NCBI GenBank assembly: GCA_029978085.1
Contig: JAPOJV010000007.1
Coordinates: forward strand, 1-48,775
From: a bacterium
GTDB taxonomy: Bacteria > Planctomycetota > Planctomycetia > Pirellulales > UBA1268
Length of the DNA stretch: 48,775 nucleotides
Reading direction: 5' to 3'
Position numbers and translations under genes: made by a program. Positions 38,248 to 48,215 of the stretch are shown in pieces. Position 1 is the stretch's first letter. Each line of letters opens with the position of its first letter. Below the pieces are notes generated by a model. The model did no database searches and was not told where the DNA came from. It worked only from the letters and a program-made list of their open reading frames with translations.

Positions 38248-39387
38248 TTACCGGCTCCGGGCGAGGTCGTGGTAGAGCTGCCAGCGAGCCTGCATTTCCT
38301 CGACGCTGTCGCCGCCGAACTTGTCGATGACCGCGGCCGCAACCTCGAAGGCGACGACGCTCTCGATGATCACGCTGCACGCGCTCACGGCGCATACGTC
38401 GCTCCGCTCGTAGGCCGCCTCTTCGGCCTCCTTAGTCCGCAGATTCACCGACCCGAGCGGCTTGCGAAGCGTGCTGATCGGCTTCATGGCGGCCCGCACG
38501 ACGAGCGGCTGGCCATTGGTCATGCCGGCCTCGAGGCCGCCGGCGTTGTTGGTGGGCCGCGTGAAGCCGAGCTGGGGCGAGTCGCGTAATGCGGAGTCGT
38601 AGTGGATCGGGTCGTGCACCTCCGAGCCGCGGCGCCGGGCCGCCTCGAAGCCCATCCCGATCTCCACGCCCTTGATCGCCTGCACCGCCATCACCGCCTG
38701 GGCGAGCCGGCCGTCGAGCTTGCGGTCCCATTGTGCGTGGGTGCCGAGGCCGATCGGCAGGCCGTCGACCCGCACTTCGACCACGCCACCGAGTGTGTCA
38801 CCTTCCTTGCCGATGCGGTCGATGAGCGTGGTCACTTCGGCGTCGCGCTCCGGGTGCAGCGAATAGATGGCGCTCGAATCGCGGACCGCCCGCAGGTCTG
38901 GCAGCGAGCCGGCCCGATCGCCGAGCACCACGCCACCGAGCTCGGTCACCCAGCCGGCCACCTCGATGCCGAACACGGCGAGGAGTTGGCGGGCGAGTCC
39001 GCCGGCGGCGACCCGAGCGGCGGTCTCGCGGGCGCTGGCCCGCTCGAGCACGGCCCGCACGCCACCGAGATGCTTGATCGAACCAGGCAGATCGGCATGG
39101 CCGGGCCGCGGGCGATCGACGTCGTCGAGCCGCTCGAGCTTGGCGTCCTTGTTGATCACCTCGAGCGCCAGCGGGCTGCCAAGCGTGGTGCCGCGCCAGA
39201 GACCCGAGAGAAACGTGACGGAGTCGGTCTCGATCCGCTGGCGACCGCCACGGCCGTAGCCCCCCTGTCGCCGCACGAGTTCGGCGTCGATCGCGGCCTT
39301 GTCGACCGTTAGTCCGGCCGGAAAGCCGTCCACGAGGGCGACGAGGGCGGGGCCATGGGATTCACCGGCGGTCCAGTAGCGGAGCAT
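38248..39387 (-). CDS. aroC: chorismate synthase
   Basis: This FMN-dependent enzyme makes chorismate from EPSP, the last shared step to aromatic amino acids. The 379-residue protein begins with LRYWTAGESHGPALVALVDG and has RRQGGYGRGGRQRIE, SARETAARVAAGG, GMGFEAARRRGSEVHDP, TNNAGGLEAGMTNGQPLVV and the ending block around SDVCAVSACSVIIE, all standard signatures. It is separated from the other shikimate genes of this window (aroDE, aroK) by about 9 kb. Confidence 0.96.
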   Translation of the reverse strand: MLRYWTAGESHGPALVALVDGFPAGLTVDKAAIDAELVRRQGGYGRGGRQRIETDSVTFLSGLWRGTTLGSPLALEVINKDAKLERLDDVDRPRPGHADLPGSIKHLGGVRAVLERASARETAARVAAGGLARQLLAVFGIEVAGWVTELGGVVLGDRAGSLPDLRAVRDSSAIYSLHPERDAEVTTLIDRIGKEGDTLGGVVEVRVDGLPIGLGTHAQWDRKLDGRLAQAVMAVQAIKGVEIGMGFEAARRRGSEVHDPIHYDSALRDSPQLGFTRPTNNAGGLEAGMTNGQPLVVRAAMKPISTLRKPLGSVNLRTKEAEEAAYERSDVCAVSACSVIIESVVAFEVAAAVIDKFGGDSVEEMQARWQLYHDLARSR

Positions 39388-39789
39388 TGCGGGCAGGGGG
39401 GGTTAAGGCTTGGGGTGTCGCTCCAGAGTCTAGTTGGCGAATTCGGCCGGCCCTAGAGCGGATCTCAGGTCATGAATCGCCGGCTCGGGGGCGGTACAAG
39501 TCTCGTCGCGGAACCTCGAAGACTCGGTTCAAATGCTCCTCGAGCTTGCACCGACCCCCTCACCTACCACTGCCCGCGTCATGGTCGGCGGGGTGCCGGT
39601 CAGCCGGCGGTAAACCCTCCGTCGCTCGCTTCGGGATTCCTCCGGCACACCGGGTACCCAGTGGTCCACACACAGCTACGGATATCCCTGCGCTCGTCCT
39701 CCGGGTTCCCCGACCGTCTGCCCTCCCGCTGTGCCTCAGGGCAGGTGGCGACTCGTGGCGTCGGACAATCTGCTCCGAGATCGCGAGTG
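39388..39789. other. 402-base gap between aroC and purC without a recognisable gene
   Basis: No open frame here fits a gene. Read on the minus strand it holds palindromic stretches, for example the 10-base palindrome CTGGGTACCC near 39652-39661, and the text GAAGCGAGCGACGG, which recalls the AGCGAGCG text of repeats A-E but without their paired arms. It may hold a structured RNA or a decayed repeat; I cannot decide which. Confidence 0.4.
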
Positions 39790-40707
39790 TCACGCGACCG
39801 GCGTGGCGCCCGTGAGCAGGCGGCAGGCTTCGAGGTATTTGTCGCGGGTCTTGGCGACGATGTCGGCGGGGAGAGCCGGCGGCGTGCTTGCCTTGTCCCA
39901 GTTGCTCGCTTCGAGCCAGTCACGGACGAACTGCTTGTCGAACGAATCGGGCACGCGGCCCGTGCCGGCCGCCGCGGCGGGCCAGAACCGGGAACTGTCG
40001 GGCGTGAGCACCTCGTCCACGAGCAGGAGCGTGCCGTCTGGCAGGCGGCCCCACTCGAACTTCGTGTCGGCTAGGACGATGCCCCGCGTGGCGGCGTGTT
40101 CGGCGCCTCGCGAGTAGACGTCGAGGCTCTTGTCGCGGAGCGTGGCGGCGAGGTCGGCACCGATCCGATCGGCCATCAGGTCGAACGATACGTTCTCGTC
40201 GTGACCGCTCGCGGCCTTGGTCGCCGGCGTGAAGATCGGGGCGGGCAGACGACCTCCCGGCGCGAGCCCCGGCGGCAGCGGCACGCCGCAGACCGTGCCC
40301 GTCGTGCGATACTCCGCCAGACCGGAGCCGGCGAGCCAGCCACGAACGACGCACTCGAACGGGATCACTTCGGCGCACCGCACGAGCATCGTGCGGCCGC
40401 GGAGTGGACCGCGGTCGATCGACGCGGGCAGCCCCATCGCATCGACATCGGTCGTGAGCAGGTGGTGCGCGATCGGGGCGGGGCCGCGGGAGAGCAGGTC
40501 GAACCAGAAGGCCGAGATCGCCGTCAGCACCTTCCCCTTGTCGGGAATCGGTGTCGGCAGGATCCAGTCGAAGGCGCTGATCCGGTCGGTGCTCACGATC
40601 AGCATCACGTCGCCGTGGCTGTCGGACGTGAAGCGATAACAGTCGCGGACCTTCCCGCGAAAGGGCGTGCCAAGCGGCAGATTCGTTTCAGTGACAGCGT
40701 CGTTCAT
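39790..40707 (-). CDS. purC: SAICAR synthase
   Basis: PurC joins aspartate to CAIR using ATP in purine synthesis. The 305-residue protein, of the longer eukaryote-like and mycobacterial size class, has GKVRDCYRF near the start, STDRISAFDWILPTPIPDKG, the ECVVRGWLAGSGLAEY block, GIVLADTKFEWG and LLLVDEVLTPDSSRFW. ATG at 40707 is chosen over an earlier in-frame start six codons upstream. It stands alone, with the inverted pair of repeats D and E upstream of its start. Confidence 0.95.
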   Translation of the reverse strand: MNDAVTETNLPLGTPFRGKVRDCYRFTSDSHGDVMLIVSTDRISAFDWILPTPIPDKGKVLTAISAFWFDLLSRGPAPIAHHLLTTDVDAMGLPASIDRGPLRGRTMLVRCAEVIPFECVVRGWLAGSGLAEYRTTGTVCGVPLPPGLAPGGRLPAPIFTPATKAASGHDENVSFDLMADRIGADLAATLRDKSLDVYSRGAEHAATRGIVLADTKFEWGRLPDGTLLLVDEVLTPDSSRFWPAAAAGTGRVPDSFDKQFVRDWLEASNWDKASTPPALPADIVAKTRDKYLEACRLLTGATPVA

Positions 40708-40777
40708 GGGGGTTGTTCTACGCATTCTCCGCAGGCTGGGCCAGAGTCGATTTGCGTGGCCTCAACTCGTGCATAAC

Positions 40778-41126: not shown

Positions 41127-44100
41127 TCAGCAGAAGTCGCGGGACATGCGGGGGAGGGCGCCGGCGGTGGATGGCTCGGGACGGATGGCTGTGGCTGATT
41201 CGAGCCGGGTCGATACCACGTGCACCACGGCGCCGCGGCGCTGGATCCGGCCGTGTACCACGAGCACGGCTGCGCGGCGGGCGGCCAGGTCCGCCGCCTC
41301 CCACACATGCGGGTGCACGACGATGTTGGCGGCGCCGGTCTCGTCTTCGATCGTGAGGAAGATCATGCCCTTCGCCGTGGCCGGTCGCTGCCGCGTGAGC
41401 ACGATGCCGGCCACCTGCACGCGCCGGCCCTCTGGCAGGCCGACCGCCTCGGCGACGGTCGCCACACCGGAGACGGCCAGCCAGTCGCGATCGAATTGGA
41501 GCGGATGGGCCGTGAGTGAGAGCCCCGCGGTGCGATAGTCGGCCACCACCTCTTCTTCCGGCGAGAGCAGCGGCAGGAGGTCGCCGTCGTCTTCGTCGTC
41601 GTCATCGAGGTCGTCGAGCAATGGTCGGCTGTCGGGCCGCTCGAGGCAGCGCATCGCCTCCCAGACCGCCCGCCTGCGGTCGAGACCGAGTGAGGCAAAT
41701 GCGCCGGCGCGGGCCAGATGCAGTAGTGCCTCGCGGTCGAGTCCGGCGCGGCGGGCCAGCTCCCGCGGGAGTCGAAAGGGGCCGTCGCGGCGGGCGGTTT
41801 CGATCCGTCGCCCCGCCGCCTCGCCCAGGCCATACACCTGTTCGAGCCCCAGCCGGATCGCCGGCTGTTTGTCGGGATCAGCCTTCAGCCGCCCCTCGAG
41901 CGTCGCATGCCAACGGCTCGCGTTGACGTCCACGGGCAATACCTTCACGCCATGCGCCTTGGCGTCGCGGACGAGCTGGGCGGGCGCGTAGAAGCCCATC
42001 GGCTGGCTGCCGAGCAGGGCGGCGGTGAAGGCGGCTGGATGGTGATGCTTGAGCCAGGCCGACACATAGACGAGCAGGGCGAAGCTCGCCGCATGTGATT
42101 CCGGAAAGCCATATTCCCCGAAGCCACGGATCTGTCCGAACACCTGCTCTGCAAACTGCTGCGAGAGGCCCCGCGCGAGCATGCCGTCGATCAGCTTGCG
42201 GCGAAATTCCTCGATCAGCCCCGGCCGCCGCCAGGCCCCCATCGCCCGCCGGAGTTGATCGGCTTCGCCCGGCGTGAAGCCCGCCGCCACGACCGCCAGC
42301 CGCATCGCCTGCTCCTGAAAGAGCGGCACGCCGAGCGTCTTCTCCAGCACCTCGCGGATCGCGTCGTTGGGGTACGTGACCGGATCCTCGCCCGCCCGCC
42401 GCCGCAGGTAGGGATGCACCATGTCGCCCTGGATCGGCCCCGGCCGCACGATCGCCACCTCGATCACGAGGTCGTAGAAGCAGCGCGGCTGGAGCCGCGG
42501 CAGCATGCTCATCTGTGCCCGGCTCTCGATCTGAAACACGCCTACCGTGTCGGCCCGGGAGATCATCTCGTAGACGGCCGGATCCTCGGCCGGCACCGTG
42601 GCGAGCGACAGTCGCGGCCCTCCGGCTCCGGCCACGAGGTCGAAGGCCCGGTGGATCGCCGACAGCATGCCCAGGGCGAGGCAGTCGACCTTCAGGATGC
42701 CGAGTTCGTCGAGGTCGTTCTTGTCCCATTGCACGATCGTGCGGCCATCCATCGTGGCCGGCTGGATCGGCACGAGGTCGGAGAGCGGGCCGCGGGTCAT
42801 CACCATGCCGCCGACGTGCTGGCCGAGATGCCGCGGAAAGCCGACGAGGCTGCCGACGAGCGCCGCGAGTCTCGTGCACGCGTCACTCGCGGGATCGAGC
42901 CCCGCCTCGGCCAGCCTCGTCGGCAGATCCTCCACGCCGTCGCCCGCGTCGAGCGCCCCGGCGATCCGATCGACTCGGTCGAGCGAGAATCCCAGCGCCT
43001 TGGCGACGTCGCGAACGGCCGACCTCAGGCGATACGAGATCACCTCGGCCGTCATCGCCGCCCGCTCGCGGCCATAGGTGGCGTAGATGTATTGGATCAC
43101 CTCCTCGCGGCGATCGTGCTCGAAGTCGATGTCGATGTCGGGAGCCTCGCGGCGCTCGCGGCTCACGAACCGCTCGAAGAGCACGTTCATCCGTGCAGGG
43201 TCCACCGACGTGATGCCCAGGCAGTAGCAGACCGCCGAGTTGGCCGCCGAGCCTCGGCCCTGGCAGAGGATGCCGCGGCGACGGGCGAATCGCACGATGT
43301 CGAACACGGTGAGGAAATAGGCCTCGTATCCGAGTTCGGCGACGAGCCCGAGTTCGTGGGCCACCAGCTCACGAACCTTCTCCGGAATACCGTCGGGATA
43401 CCGCTGCGCGGCTCCCTTCCAGGCGAGGTGGGCGAGGTGCTCGCGGGCGGTGCGACCCGGCGGCACGGTGGCCTCGGGGTATTCGTATCTCAGTTCGTCG
43501 AGCGAGAACGTGCACCGGCCGGCGATCTCCACCGTGCGTTCGAGGGCGCCAGGCAGGGCCGCGAACCGGTCCGCGATCCGCCACCGCTCGTGCAGATGCC
43601 GCTCGCCATTGGTCAGCAGTTGGCCGCGGATCGCCTCCACGGTGCTTCCGAGTCGCACGGCAGTGAGCACGTCGGCCAGGGCCAATCGGGCCCGCTCGTG
43701 GTAGCGAACGTCGCCGGCCGCCGCCACGGGCACGCCGGCATGCCGGGCCACGCGGGCGAACTCCCGCAGGCGATCGTCGTCATCTCCCTCGAGCGCCACC
43801 TCCGCCAGCGCCCAGAGCCGGTCGTCGAACACACTCCGCCAGTGGGCGAGGTGCTCGATCGCCGCTTCCTGCCCGCCTGTCACCATTTGAACTGTCGGCC
43901 GAACTGCCAGCCGATCGTGGCAGCCTGATGGCTGCGCGATCGCGGCCAGCGGCACGCCTGCCAGCAGGCCGCCGGCATGCGCCGCGATGTCGTCGAAGGT
44001 GAGGATGCACCGCTCCGATTCCGCGCCACCGCCTTCCTCTGCGGCCCGGGCGTAGCCGCGGGTGAGCAGCCGGCAGAGGTTGGCGTAGCCCGTGCGATCG

Positions 44101-44369
44101 GTCGCCCAGACGACGAGCGGCGCGGCGTCGCACGGCTCGAGGTGCGTGCCCACGATCAGCTTGAGCCCTGCCTGCTTGGCCGCGGCATGCGCCCGCACGA
44201 TGCCGGTGAGCGTGCTCTGGTCGGTGATCGCCAGCGCCTCGTAGCCGAGTGCGGCGGCCGTCTGCACGAGCTCCTCGGGATGCGATGCGCCGGTGAGAAA
44301 CGTGAAGTTGCTCGTGCAGTGCAGTTCGGCATATCGCGGTTCCATCAGGCTTCCTCCTGTGCCAGTCAT
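41127..44369 (-). CDS. dnaE2: error-prone DNA polymerase DnaE2 (ImuC)
   Basis: DnaE2 is the polymerase of the SOS mutasome and copies damaged DNA with ImuA and ImuB. The 1080-residue C-family protein has the PHP domain (AELHCTSNFTFLTGASHPEE), the palm with catalytic acids in APDIDIDFEHDRR, the GSAANSAVCYCLGIT block, the fingers (ESRAQMSMLPRLQP, then FPESHAASFALLVYVSAWLK) and an OB fold near 980-1070. Two ATG codons, at 44369 and 44345, each have their own AGGAGG ribosome site; the first is used here. It lies 13 bases after imuB and is the last gene of the cassette. Confidence 0.95.
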   Translation of the reverse strand: MTGTGGSLMEPRYAELHCTSNFTFLTGASHPEELVQTAAALGYEALAITDQSTLTGIVRAHAAAKQAGLKLIVGTHLEPCDAAPLVVWATDRTGYANLCRLLTRGYARAAEEGGGAESERCILTFDDIAAHAGGLLAGVPLAAIAQPSGCHDRLAVRPTVQMVTGGQEAAIEHLAHWRSVFDDRLWALAEVALEGDDDDRLREFARVARHAGVPVAAAGDVRYHERARLALADVLTAVRLGSTVEAIRGQLLTNGERHLHERWRIADRFAALPGALERTVEIAGRCTFSLDELRYEYPEATVPPGRTAREHLAHLAWKGAAQRYPDGIPEKVRELVAHELGLVAELGYEAYFLTVFDIVRFARRRGILCQGRGSAANSAVCYCLGITSVDPARMNVLFERFVSRERREAPDIDIDFEHDRREEVIQYIYATYGRERAAMTAEVISYRLRSAVRDVAKALGFSLDRVDRIAGALDAGDGVEDLPTRLAEAGLDPASDACTRLAALVGSLVGFPRHLGQHVGGMVMTRGPLSDLVPIQPATMDGRTIVQWDKNDLDELGILKVDCLALGMLSAIHRAFDLVAGAGGPRLSLATVPAEDPAVYEMISRADTVGVFQIESRAQMSMLPRLQPRCFYDLVIEVAIVRPGPIQGDMVHPYLRRRAGEDPVTYPNDAIREVLEKTLGVPLFQEQAMRLAVVAAGFTPGEADQLRRAMGAWRRPGLIEEFRRKLIDGMLARGLSQQFAEQVFGQIRGFGEYGFPESHAASFALLVYVSAWLKHHHPAAFTAALLGSQPMGFYAPAQLVRDAKAHGVKVLPVDVNASRWHATLEGRLKADPDKQPAIRLGLEQVYGLGEAAGRRIETARRDGPFRLPRELARRAGLDREALLHLARAGAFASLGLDRRRAVWEAMRCLERPDSRPLLDDLDDDDEDDGDLLPLLSPEEEVVADYRTAGLSLTAHPLQFDRDWLAVSGVATVAEAVGLPEGRRVQVAGIVLTRQRPATAKGMIFLTIEDETGAANIVVHPHVWEAADLAARRAAVLVVHGRIQRRGAVVHVVSTRLESATAIRPEPSTAGALPRMSRDFC

Positions 44370-44382
44370 CGCTTCCTCCTCT

Positions 44383-46191
44383 TCAGGCAAACACACCATG
44401 CAGAAACCAGGCCCCGTCTTTCAGTCTGCGAAAGAGCCAGAACCGCCCCCCCGTCTCCGTCTCGACCACGTAGTAGTCGCGCCGCACGATCGGCCCCCGC
44501 CACCAGGCCGTCTCGATTCGCTCCGGCCCGTGGGACTGCGCGACGCGATGCACCTGTCCCGCCAGCCGGAAGCGGAGCGGCGGCCGGCGCTCCGCAGCTG
44601 GGTCGATGGCGGCCACCGCCACGAGGTCGGCCTGCAACGGCTCGATCCGCACCGGCCGGGCTGGCATCCAGATCGGCCGCCGGCCGGCCAGCCGGAGTGG
44701 GGCACCAGCCGGCGGGCCGCCGCGGCCGGCTCGATCGCGGTGGGGAGTCACTGTTGGCCGGGCGTTGGCATCGGCCGGCGCAGCGGCAATCCAGGCATGC
44801 TCTGGCTGGGCATCGGCAACCGACCGTGGCTCGAATACCGCATCTCGGCCCAGCCTGCCCGAGAGCCGATCGAGCAGCATGTCGACGGCTGCCGTCCGGT
44901 CGGCCGATGTGTCGCGTGTGCCGGTGCCGTCCGTGGCATCGGCAAAGAGGGCTCGCTGACGACAGGCCGCCGCTCCGGCTGCCACCACCTCCACGACGAC
45001 GCCGTCGAGCTCCCGGGGGAGCCGCAGGCGGCCGAGTCGCAGTTGCACGAGTTCCAGGAGATGACGGGTCGAGAGGCTCGGCCGAAAGAGGCCGATGTCG
45101 ACCACGGTGGGCGCGGACGTGGCCATCCCCATGCCCGCCGGAGGTTCCAGCCGCACCTGCAGCGCCAGCACACCCTCGCCGCGGGCGGCCAGTGGCGACA
45201 CGCAGCCGGCCAGCAGGTGTTCGAGCACGGCTGCGAGCATGTCGTCGGTGAGCGTGGCCGTGGGGATCGGCAGCTCGAACGCATGCGACATCTGCGGCAA
45301 GGACTCGCTGCCGGTGCTGCAGGCCAAGGGCTCGGCCCGTGTGCCCGTGAGCTGCGCCCGCCGCAGGCCGAGCGTCGCCGGGAATCGGGAGGCCAGACTT
45401 TTGGCCGACAACTTGAGCACGCCACCGACCGAATCGATGCCCACCTCGCGGAGCGCCGTCGTCGTGGCCGGATCGAGCCGCAGCGCCGCCAGCGGCAGGC
45501 CGGCCAGTAGCACAGCCTGCTCGCCGGCCGGCACGACCGCCCACCGCCGCGGTCGCCGCCGGGGCGGCCGCGGCGAGGCTGTGGCCACATCGTTCGCGAG
45601 CAGGTGCGTGTGATGGGCGGCAGCCCAGGCCGCTCCGGGCGTGTCAGCGATCGCGGCCCGGGCATGCAGCCCTCGAGCCGCGAGCGTCCAGGCGGTCGTG
45701 CGGACGAGCATGCTTTCGCCGCCGAAGAAGCCTGCCGTGCCCGTGACATCGAGGAACAGGCAGTCCGGCGCTGCATGAGGGTCGGCGTCCGGTCCGCGGG
45801 CACTACGGGCTGCGTCATCGACCGTCGCGATCGCGACGGCTGGCGAGAAACGGCGGCACCAACGGGCCACGCGTTCGAGCGCGGCCCGATCGGCGGCCGG
45901 ATCATCAGTCACGACCTGGGCCACGTGGCAGGCTCGCGAGCCATACGTGAGCGCCAGCAATGCCATCGCCTCGGCCAGCGACGTGCCGGCCGGAATTCGC
46001 AGGGCATGCCCAGACCGCACTCCGCTGGCAGCCTCACGTGGTGCATCGGCCCAGGCCCACGATGCCACGGTCATCACGCCGCGCCGCTCCCGCCGGCAGA
46101 CGAACACCGGCACGGTCCGCCATTCTGGATGCTCACGCAGACGGCGCTGCACAGGCCACCGCGGTAGCCAGATCGTCATGAAGCGAGACAT
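44383..46191 (-). CDS. imuB: ImuB, Y-family polymerase-like protein of the SOS mutasome
   Basis: ImuB resembles Y-family DNA polymerases but usually lacks catalytic acids; it acts as a hub joining the beta clamp, ImuA and DnaE2. The 602-residue protein starts MSRFMTIWLPRWPVQRRL, a typical ImuB beginning where an active polymerase would have a DxD-type strand. It also has CLFLDVTGTAGFFGGESML and the helix-hairpin region (REVGIDSVGGVLKLSAKSLA). The C-terminal tail ends in YYVVETETGGRFWLFRRL. ATG 46191 is used; ATG 46179 is possible. It overlaps imuA by 16 bases. Confidence 0.93.
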   Translation of the reverse strand: MSRFMTIWLPRWPVQRRLREHPEWRTVPVFVCRRERRGVMTVASWAWADAPREAASGVRSGHALRIPAGTSLAEAMALLALTYGSRACHVAQVVTDDPAADRAALERVARWCRRFSPAVAIATVDDAARSARGPDADPHAAPDCLFLDVTGTAGFFGGESMLVRTTAWTLAARGLHARAAIADTPGAAWAAAHHTHLLANDVATASPRPPRRRPRRWAVVPAGEQAVLLAGLPLAALRLDPATTTALREVGIDSVGGVLKLSAKSLASRFPATLGLRRAQLTGTRAEPLACSTGSESLPQMSHAFELPIPTATLTDDMLAAVLEHLLAGCVSPLAARGEGVLALQVRLEPPAGMGMATSAPTVVDIGLFRPSLSTRHLLELVQLRLGRLRLPRELDGVVVEVVAAGAAACRQRALFADATDGTGTRDTSADRTAAVDMLLDRLSGRLGRDAVFEPRSVADAQPEHAWIAAAPADANARPTVTPHRDRAGRGGPPAGAPLRLAGRRPIWMPARPVRIEPLQADLVAVAAIDPAAERRPPLRFRLAGQVHRVAQSHGPERIETAWWRGPIVRRDYYVVETETGGRFWLFRRLKDGAWFLHGVFA

Positions 46192-47003
46192 GCCGCACCT
46201 CCTGTCGCAAAGGCCCGCGGCAGACCTCGCCGCAGCGCCGCCTCGCCGGGCCGCAGCAGGTCGAGCACGATATCGACCGGGCCTGTGGCCGCGCCGCTGC
46301 GGCCATTCCATGCGCCTCCCACGACCTCCACTCGCAGCGACCGTTCCGTGACCGCTGCATCCGGTGGCGAGGGCAGGGGAGTGACCGCGATCCTGGCCTC
46401 GGCCCACGATGGCTCGCGCCGCGCCGCTTCTGGCCTCACGAAGAGCCCCACGGCGCCACTCGATCGCGCGGCCAGCTGCCACCGCCGCATGGCGGTGGTC
46501 CACTGCTGGAGTGCATGGCCGCGGGCGGGCCGCTCTTGCCCGCTCCACAGGGCAGCCATCCGCGGCCAGGCCAGAACCGCCGCCACGCCGCTGCACCGCA
46601 GGGCCTGATCGATCGCCCAGATTTCATCATCGTCGCCCGCTGGGCGGGCCACGATGAGCCGCGGCTCATCCTTGCCGGGGTCGCTCTGCCGGGCCAGCCA
46701 GGGCATGAGGGCGGGCGGATGAAACCAGCCGCGGCGATCGACCACGACGATCGTCCGTGCCGACGACGCGGCTGCGAGCCGGCAGGCGACCAGGCCGGCC
46801 AGCGTCGTTGCCCCGCTGCCCTCGCCGCTGGCGAGCCACTCGATCAAGCTGCCGCGACGGACGCCGCCGCCGGGAAGCTGGGGGTCGAGCCGCCGCAGCC
46901 CGCTCGACACCACCTCGCGGTCGTGGGTGTGCCGCTGCAGCTGTTCGGCGTCGACCACGCCCTCTGTCAGCAATGCCAGCCCTGTCGATCCGAATGTCAC
47001 CAT
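46176..47003 (-). CDS. imuA: ImuA, RecA-like protein of the SOS mutasome
   Basis: ImuA is a RecA/SulA-related protein needed for damage-induced mutagenesis with ImuB and DnaE2. The 275-residue protein shows a RecA-like core: SSGLRRLDPQLPGGGVRRGS, then a degenerate Walker A (GEGSGATT, lacking the usual Lys), TIVVVDRRGWFHP, and a C-terminal beta stretch (RSLRVEVVGGAWNGR). It is the first gene of the imuA-imuB-dnaE2 cassette. A palindrome resembling an SOS operator lies just upstream. Confidence 0.88.
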   Translation of the reverse strand: MVTFGSTGLALLTEGVVDAEQLQRHTHDREVVSSGLRRLDPQLPGGGVRRGSLIEWLASGEGSGATTLAGLVACRLAAASSARTIVVVDRRGWFHPPALMPWLARQSDPGKDEPRLIVARPAGDDDEIWAIDQALRCSGVAAVLAWPRMAALWSGQERPARGHALQQWTTAMRRWQLAARSSGAVGLFVRPEAARREPSWAEARIAVTPLPSPPDAAVTERSLRVEVVGGAWNGRSGAATGPVDIVLDLLRPGEAALRRGLPRAFATGGAACLAS

Positions 47004-47026
47004 GACACATGCCTCCGATTCGGTGT

Positions 47027-47042
47027 GTGTACGAGCGTACAG
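47027..47042 (-). promoter_or_regulatory. putative LexA-type SOS operator upstream of imuA
   Basis: On the minus strand the site reads CTGT-N8-ACAC, one base from the gamma-proteobacterial LexA pattern CTGT-N8-ACAG. It contains the perfect dyad TGTACG-CT-CGTACA (47028-47041). It is 23 bases from the imuA ATG and 57 from the start of the divergent caspase-like gene, so it could control either or both. LexA control of such cassettes is known in other phyla; here it is inferred. Confidence 0.6.
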
Positions 47043-47099
47043 TATCCGGGGCGGGCCCGGGCGTCAAGTAGCGGGTGGCCGGGGTATGCTGGGGGCACA

Positions 47100-48215
47100 A
47101 TGGCGCTTGTGCCCCGCTTTTTCGTCGTCCTCTGCCTGGTCGTCGGTTGCCTGCCGCGTGCGGCAACGGCGGCTGAGTCCGTCGCGCTGCCCGCCGATTT
47201 CACCGCGTTTCAGCAGGACACTTCCCCCAGCGTGCGGGCTGCCCGGCCGATGGCCGACAAGCACTGGCGGCAGATCGAACCGGCCCTCTATCACCTCGCC
47301 ATCCAGCACGCCGATTGCCTCGACTCGCTGTCGCCGGCCGACCGGATCGCGACACTGGCGTCCCTGGTCGGATTCATCGATCGGGTTCGCACTGCCCACG
47401 CGGCTCGGCCCGTGCTCGCTCCCGGCCGCACTGTCGTCGGCCTGCTCGACCCCGCCCGCGGGCTCGATCCGAAGGAGATCACCGCCATTGCCACCGTCTA
47501 TGGCGGCACGCCCACCGTCTTCAAACAGGACGCCGCCGGCGAGACGATCGCCTCCGTAGCGGATGACTTTCTGGCGGCGGTTCGCGCCGCAGCCGCCGCC
47601 GATACGCCTGCGACGATCGTCGTGCTCGGCCACGGACTGCCGACGGAGATTCAGAGTTATTCGATTCGCTTCGAGCGGCTCGCTGCGGCGCTCCTTGACG
47701 GTGCTGCCCGCACGGACTCAGCCACCGCAGCGACTCCCACCGTCGATCTCGGCCGCATCGTGCTCGTCTGCGACGACTGCTTCAGCACCGACTTCCTGAT
47801 CAACCTCTGCGGAGAGATCGCGGCGGAATGTCGCCGCCGCGGCCAAAGACTCGTGTCGCTGCCGATCTGCATCGCGGGGACGAACCGCGATTGCGTCGGC
47901 CACGCCGACGTGGGGGAAAAGTTCGTGCCGCACTTCTGGAAAGACGTGATCGAACTCTTCTACGTGCGGCGGCCGCGGCCCGAAGCCGTCACGCTCGGCG
48001 ACTTCTTCGAGAAGGTCGACAACATGATGTATGGCTACGGCCGCGCGCCGACTGTCGGCCGTGACGGGAGCGTGAGCTACCGGCTCGTCGATCCGACGCA
48101 GTGCCAGGATCCTGTCGTACTGGTGCCGCTCGACGAGACCGAAGTCGCCGAACTCCGCACGATCCTCCGGCTCCCCGCCGACGCCCCGCTCCCGGGCTGG
48201 CTCGACATCGGGTGA
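47100..48215 (+). CDS. secreted protein with caspase-like (clan CD) His/Cys signature
   Basis: A 371-residue protein beginning with a signal peptide (FFVVLCLVVGCLPRAATA, about 7-24). A hydrophobic strand ending in H178-G179 (TIVVLGHGL) is followed about 45 residues later by another strand ending in D226-C227 (RIVLVCDDCFST). This His-Gly/Asp-Cys pair after strands is the catalytic layout of clan CD cysteine peptidases (caspases, legumain, gingipains). The rest shows no other domain I know. It starts 97 bases from imuA, facing away from it. No other protease or inhibitor gene is adjacent. Peptidase activity is an inference from a short motif. Confidence 0.6.
   Translation: MALVPRFFVVLCLVVGCLPRAATAAESVALPADFTAFQQDTSPSVRAARPMADKHWRQIEPALYHLAIQHADCLDSLSPADRIATLASLVGFIDRVRTAHAARPVLAPGRTVVGLLDPARGLDPKEITAIATVYGGTPTVFKQDAAGETIASVADDFLAAVRAAAAADTPATIVVLGHGLPTEIQSYSIRFERLAAALLDGAARTDSATAATPTVDLGRIVLVCDDCFSTDFLINLCGEIAAECRRRGQRLVSLPICIAGTNRDCVGHADVGEKFVPHFWKDVIELFYVRRPRPEAVTLGDFFEKVDNMMYGYGRAPTVGRDGSVSYRLVDPTQCQDPVVLVPLDETEVAELRTILRLPADAPLPGWLDIG

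Follow-up and report, generated by a model that had tools for sequence, protein, structure and literature searches.

A lineage-restricted planctomycete protein family with a predicted caspase-type fold and export signal, encoded beside the imuA-imuB-dnaE2 cassette

The metacaspases and orthocaspases (C14, PF00656), the legumain-type peptidases and ligases (C13) and the caspase-like (RNC) domain (PF14538) of Raptor, the eukaryotic TOR scaffold, are the described members of clan CD that come closest to the protein presented here. The clan's core, as given in an excerpt of PMC4357240, consists of strands 1-4 and helices 1-3, with the catalytic His placed after strand 3, then three short strands and helix 3, and the Cys after strand 4; bacterial metacaspases with an N-terminal helix, possibly a signal peptide, are also on record (a passage of PMC3501461). 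The imuA-imuB-dnaE2 SOS mutagenesis cassette is described, in a passage of PMC3323433, as LexA-regulated whenever present. In the planctomycete DNA analyzed here (the window, i.e., the whole stretch of 48,775 nucleotides of contig JAPOJV010000007.1), this cassette has a caspase-like gene as its physical neighbour, although on the opposite strand, and an earlier note made from the sequence alone had linked that gene to DNA damage. The reading favoured here, at a probability of roughly 0.7, is that of a secreted or periplasmic clan CD cysteine peptidase, transcribed from its own promoter and located beside imuA through synteny, not through a shared damage response. The gene and its product have the following features:

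47100-48215, plus strand: predicted exported caspase-fold protein of 371 aa, the coordinates including the stop codon (open reading frame, relatives, alignment, AlphaFold2 model, VIA-align)
47100-47174, plus strand: predicted signal peptide, residues 1-25, with a putative cleavage site ...AATAA/E (hydrophobic stretch of KD 3.20 and an AxA-like site)
47631-47633, plus strand: codon of H178, the predicted catalytic His, directly after strand 171-176 (invariant in 51/51; DSSP of the model)
47772-47780, plus strand: codons of D225, D226 and C227, the last being the predicted catalytic Cys, directly after strand 220-225 (invariant in 51/51; DSSP of the model; hhalign puts C227 on the C14 Cys)

The gene runs from the ATG at 47100 to the TGA at 48215, whereas the start at 47003 previously given for it is in fact the start codon of imuA. 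As dN/dS against the 89%-identical relative L070 is 0.18 and the His/Cys pair is invariant in all of the 51 aligned members, the frame is not a chance one. VVLGHG and LVCDDCFS, the motifs from which a caspase-like protein had been proposed, are present in that order and carry H178 (within TIVVLGHGLP) and C227 (within IVLVCDDCFS), and the conservation expected of this pair is borne out: both residues were kept in 39 of the 39 rows with a letter there in a first alignment of 41 rows, and H178, G179, D225, D226, C227 and S229 are unchanged throughout the 51 members, whose identity with the window protein goes down to 40%. Export, likewise proposed before, is predicted by hydropathy, as a hydrophobic N-terminal stretch is seen in 43 of the 48 aligned rows possessing an N-terminus (a hydropathy count, with no signal-peptide predictor, that omits the truncated rows L094, L108 and L114), and the start codons of the five remaining rows (L076, L085, L090, L095 and L103) may be misassigned. 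As a prediction, then, the protein is caspase-like and secreted. A terminator-like hairpin with a T-run at 47092-47115 spans the start codon of the gene, and both its stem and its T-run are disrupted in L070, the nearest relative.

AlphaFold2 models of the window protein (pLDDT 88.1, pTM 0.86) and of the distant member L116 (about 40% identical; pLDDT 84.0) both possess strands 1-4 and helices 1-3 of the clan CD core, as defined in the same excerpt of PMC4357240, and both match solved clan CD structures, so that the caspase fold put forward in the earlier note has gained the support of structure prediction. For the window model, VIA-align gave Z 15.3 for a peptide asparaginyl ligase, 15.1 for Raptor, 14.4 for metacaspase 9 (AtMCA-IIf), 14.3 for caspase-6 and 14.2 for MALT1 (rmsd 3.1-3.6 across 180-198 residues, mainly within residues 108-345), the best 50 rows going down to Z 13.5. 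The L116 model returned the same clan CD groups at Z up to 13.8, with Raptor ranking first and prolegumain at 13.4, and no family from outside clan CD appeared among the best 50 rows of either model. Since rows at most 1 Z apart count as tied, no clan CD subfamily can be singled out as the nearest. Foldseek placed caspase-4 first for the window model, with lyases among the next rows and no E at or below 0.001. The model's topology is b1-a1-b2-a2-b3-(H178)-three short strands (179-180, 183-184 and 189-190)-a3-b4-(C227), in which H178 and C227 follow the very strands that carry the pair in caspases, and H178 is followed by the invariant G179; that both residues occupy the fold's catalytic positions is thus supported at the level of the models.

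The distribution of the gene is narrow. It was matched in 42 of the 79 genomes searched, namely in 41 of 48 from its own taxonomic family (in a few merely as fragments) and in one of 31 from other families, the latter match being weak (E 1.7e-4, 120 residues, three stops). When 392 genomes were drawn evenly from the phylum and five candidates scored in each, so that remote kin may be missed, only the genome of origin and one 50-position match (E 2.7e-4) came up. A search of genome contigs gave 50 loci with the gene, all of them MAG records with planctomycete titles, and among viral contigs 25 stretches fit a pattern, none of which was confirmed as a relative. No Pfam or NCBIfam family matches the window protein, and when 28 members were compared with Pfam, seven families were hit by one member each (best E 0.0051), none of them a clan CD peptidase. 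Going by its predicted fold, this is a new, lineage-restricted, exported family of clan CD, which would thereby gain an unrecognised family from a phylum where C14 metacaspases occur as well. Two genomes hold two copies each, one beside imuA and one elsewhere (G010, L070 and L088; G017, L036 and L163), the copy beside imuA in G017 being a fragment at a contig end.

The cassette and the elements between it and the caspase-like gene are as follows:

41127-44399, minus strand: dnaE2, error-prone polymerase (NCBIfam PRK05672, 1404.8 bits)
44383-46191, minus strand: open reading frame of 602 aa with homologues in place, which we take to be imuB
46176-47003, minus strand: imuA (NCBIfam ImuA at 80 bits, under the cut-off of 150; position in the imuA-imuB-dnaE2 cassette)
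47026-47047, minus strand: apparent LexA-type operator around a core palindrome, 47028-47041 (lies across the predicted imuA -10; lexA and recA have related upstream sites)
47039-47067, minus strand: predicted imuA core promoter, TTGAC at 47067-47063, a 17-nt spacer after the hexamer, and TACTGT at 47044-47039 (GTCAA in 29/29 rows)
47085-47090, plus strand: TATGCT, a possible -10 for the caspase-like gene, whose ATG follows after 9 nt (suggested by its letters and position; not scored by the promoter scan)

The gap between the divergent starts (47004-47099, 96 bp) contains a single perfect TGTACGAGCGTACA (47028-47041), which occurs in none of 100 dinucleotide shuffles of the window. Across the planctomycete family, the motif reads TGTACG-N2-CGTACA followed by GTAT and lies over the predicted imuA -10, as it does in the window judging by TTGACG, 17 nt and TACTGT, a core promoter that a simple promoter scan did not score. 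A 22-nt matrix built from 28 linked loci and the window places the operator upstream of imuA in 29/29 rows (scores of 25.1-35.3, in-sample by construction), each with GTCAA (read as TTGAC on the strand of imuA) no more than 30 nt downstream. As the sites upstream of lexA (L124, 5.9) and recA (L129, 13.1) outscore all positions of the window apart from the operator (at best -1.6; a shifted reading of the operator itself scores 3.9), the LexA motif finds support, and the operator, on the strength of its sequence, looks LexA-type. TGTACG-N2-CGTACA beside imuA, together with the related sites at lexA and recA, represents an SOS motif that can be tested in this planctomycete group.

Might LexA co-repress the caspase-like gene through this operator as well, making an exported protease part of the SOS response at least where imuA adjoins? 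Proximity speaks for it: an imuA match lies within the fetched stretch in 28 of the 50 loci, to which a re-check adds L104 (29/50), whose contig begins inside imuA (an N-terminal part that matches the ImuA proteins of relatives at best E values of 5.0e-7 to 6.0e-7), and the two genes are divergent in all of these 29 same-stretch pairs, just as had been described for the window. In 22 of the 28 linked loci the imuA match is at most 362 nt from the gene (96 bp in the window), with the operator 32-230 nt from the caspase-like ATG; in the window and L070 it ends 52 nt before the ATG, so that LexA could still touch the gene, and a passage of PMC6950475 tells of claims that E. coli undergoes SOS-linked death with caspase-like activity. 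The operator, however, follows imuA in its position, over the predicted -10, and it is its distance to the caspase-like gene that varies. In the six linked loci with 1.3-3.2 kb between the imuA match and the gene, it remains with imuA, and none of these six caspase-like genes has it at 400 nt or less; nor does any of the 18 unlinked loci with upstream sequence (L104 being counted as linked and three further loci without upstream sequence being left out). Furthermore, seven of the 41 gene-bearing genomes of the family, several of them incomplete, have no detected imuA.

Twelve further imuA regions were fetched, one of them with just 17 nt upstream, which left 11 for testing: the matrix scores at least 16.0 in ten, and the weakest, G022 at 14.1, falls inside the shuffle range of the linked-locus scan (up to 14.4). 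In six of the 11 (G013, G014, G022, G026, G035 and G042), the 1.9-2.5 kb upstream of imuA are free of the caspase-like gene; G002, G011, G021 and G041 have only 381-1487 nt of contig upstream of imuA, and a copy beyond its end is possible; and G017 has the gene fragment beside imuA. The operator is thus kept with imuA and not with the caspase-like gene's own promoter, and because it overlaps the predicted imuA promoter and follows imuA when the genes separate, it would act for imuA. A shared SOS promoter was rejected on the same two grounds; of the earlier description, the 96-bp gap and the SOS-like operator within it stand, and the sharing does not. We consider co-repression by LexA unlikely, and the caspase-like protein is probably not an SOS effector.

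Going by its upstream letters, the gene probably has its own promoter near the ATG, and we would expect no induction by damage. Of 23 close rows, 17 have a -10-like hexamer at most 60 nt from the ATG, and in ten of the 17 it is 6-10 nt away; mononucleotide shuffles averaged 4.9 such rows and never exceeded 10 across 500 sets. The sole -10-like hits of L083 fall inside the operator, and a stricter scan, by its own rule, detected no promoter.

The persistence of the pair is matched by that of genes at the other end of the cassette. Beyond dnaE2, the window has aroC and purC (38248-40725), a place kept in most of the testable loci: 21 of the 50 loci have a DnaE2 match, followed by PurC in 14 and AroC in 10, and five of the seven PurC-less loci have at most 15 bases beyond dnaE2, i.e., PurC is present in 14 of 16 testable loci. 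PurC is a purine enzyme, for which we know of no role in the mutasome. The order aroC-purC-dnaE2-imuB-imuA is a stable block with the caspase-like gene at its edge, and the gene lying beyond the latter in the window was found in 0/21 of the DnaE2-bearing loci; as the control loci were drawn by the caspase-like gene, what the control tells concerns the block and not genomes at large. Because the unrelated purC beyond dnaE2 is about as persistent, the pairing of the caspase-like gene with imuA looks like ordinary synteny.

Co-occurrence points the same way. Among the 48 genomes of the family, many of which are incomplete, 34 have both genes, seven only the caspase-like gene, five only imuA and two neither, and the presence of one is not associated with that of the other (Fisher p = 0.60). 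Where both are present, they lie within 1 kb in 21 genomes, at 1-4 kb in three, at 615 kb in one and on different contigs (some at contig ends) in nine. In other families, imuA is matched in 20/31 genomes (G073 only at E 6.7e-4), 19 of which have no match to the caspase-like gene, the 20th, G070, having the weak one. On a tree of the members, the label "close" needs seven changes and the five basal members are unlinked (midpoint root; L104 carries a wrong "unlinked" label). Of the proteins that flank the gene, twenty from 15 loci, linked as well as unlinked (frames picked mechanically), gave matches to an amidohydrolase, F5/8-type C, ceramidase, a PolX-like protein, FtsX, Gfo/Idh/MocA, AcrB (4/20) and others, with three lacking any match; no single partner recurs in most of these loci. 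Among the paper titles listed in a literature search, none concerns a caspase-like gene beside imuA. In view of the purC/aroC control and the co-occurrence table, conservation of the pair was rejected as proof that the two genes are functionally linked, and they look like long-standing neighbours rather than partners. With the operator following imuA and absent near separated genes, the proposed link to DNA damage finds no support; a tempting yet unsupported connection of the bacterial response to DNA damage with a caspase-like protein is thereby removed.

In the secreted or periplasmic peptidase that we favour, a helical N-terminal region (approximately residues 34-100) would precede one domain of caspase/haemoglobinase fold (108-345). 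H178 would activate C227 for peptide-bond cleavage. For the specificity, the metacaspase TbMCA2 offers a parallel in its Asp211 (in an excerpt of PMC4357240), which suggests that D225, an invariant residue two positions ahead of the Cys, may line S1 and favour a basic P1. The same His and Cys could, alternatively, serve a transpeptidase or ligase, or the fold could be that of a binding or scaffold protein, for which it can be said that a peptide asparaginyl ligase and Raptor, itself a scaffold, score best and that no peptidase profile matches. The six residues kept without exception are, however, active-site-like, and we regard a caspase fold without a protease role as decidedly unlikely.

As to the named relatives of this presumed peptidase, the C14 peptidases resemble it in predicted fold and in the order of the active site (His-Gly, then Asp-x-Cys-x-Ser), but the protein has no PF00656 match, and its helical region and a conserved C-terminal part lie outside the C14 profiles; the legumain-type enzymes share the fold and no sequence match. 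Neither the Peptidase_C14 (PF00656) nor the Raptor_N (PF14538) profile finds anything in the genome of origin at E <= 10 or in the 28 members, which places the protein in neither family by profile, and a PDB sequence search gave no match (best E 1.1, to lipases). With hhalign, planctomycete C14 domains (13 of 27 matches used) aligned over no more than 14 columns, those surrounding the Cys (P 0.005), and two Raptor sequences over 151, where GHG meets GHG and DDC meets YDC (P 0.052, not significant); we treat both as sequence leads only. A place among the homologues of metacaspases or Raptor is not supported by sequence, the profile and PDB searches being without a match and the hhalign results short or non-significant. 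In the listed rows of the window model only Raptor rows (5wbk excepted) extend to residue 371, with five Raptor rows reaching 389-392 and two metacaspase rows 383-386 for L116; set apart from Raptor, the protein has the non-significant hhalign P, no PF14538 hit in the genome and Z scores within 1 of other clan CD families. Were the protein an exported, catalytically intact bacterial relation of the caspase-like domain of Raptor, found in a single planctomycete family, it would show the role of that fold before it became a TOR scaffold, but we find this highly improbable.

Apart from the cassette, a perfect TGTACGTGCGTACA of 14 bases is found at G000:C245:671-684 (L127), inside the open reading frame L127:589-1005 and some 20-30 nt before the start of a presumably RelE-like protein (MMFRIAYAAGVADDLRRM...). 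With a matrix score of 16.5 on the other strand, this site is a possible SOS-type operator before a toxin-antitoxin gene.
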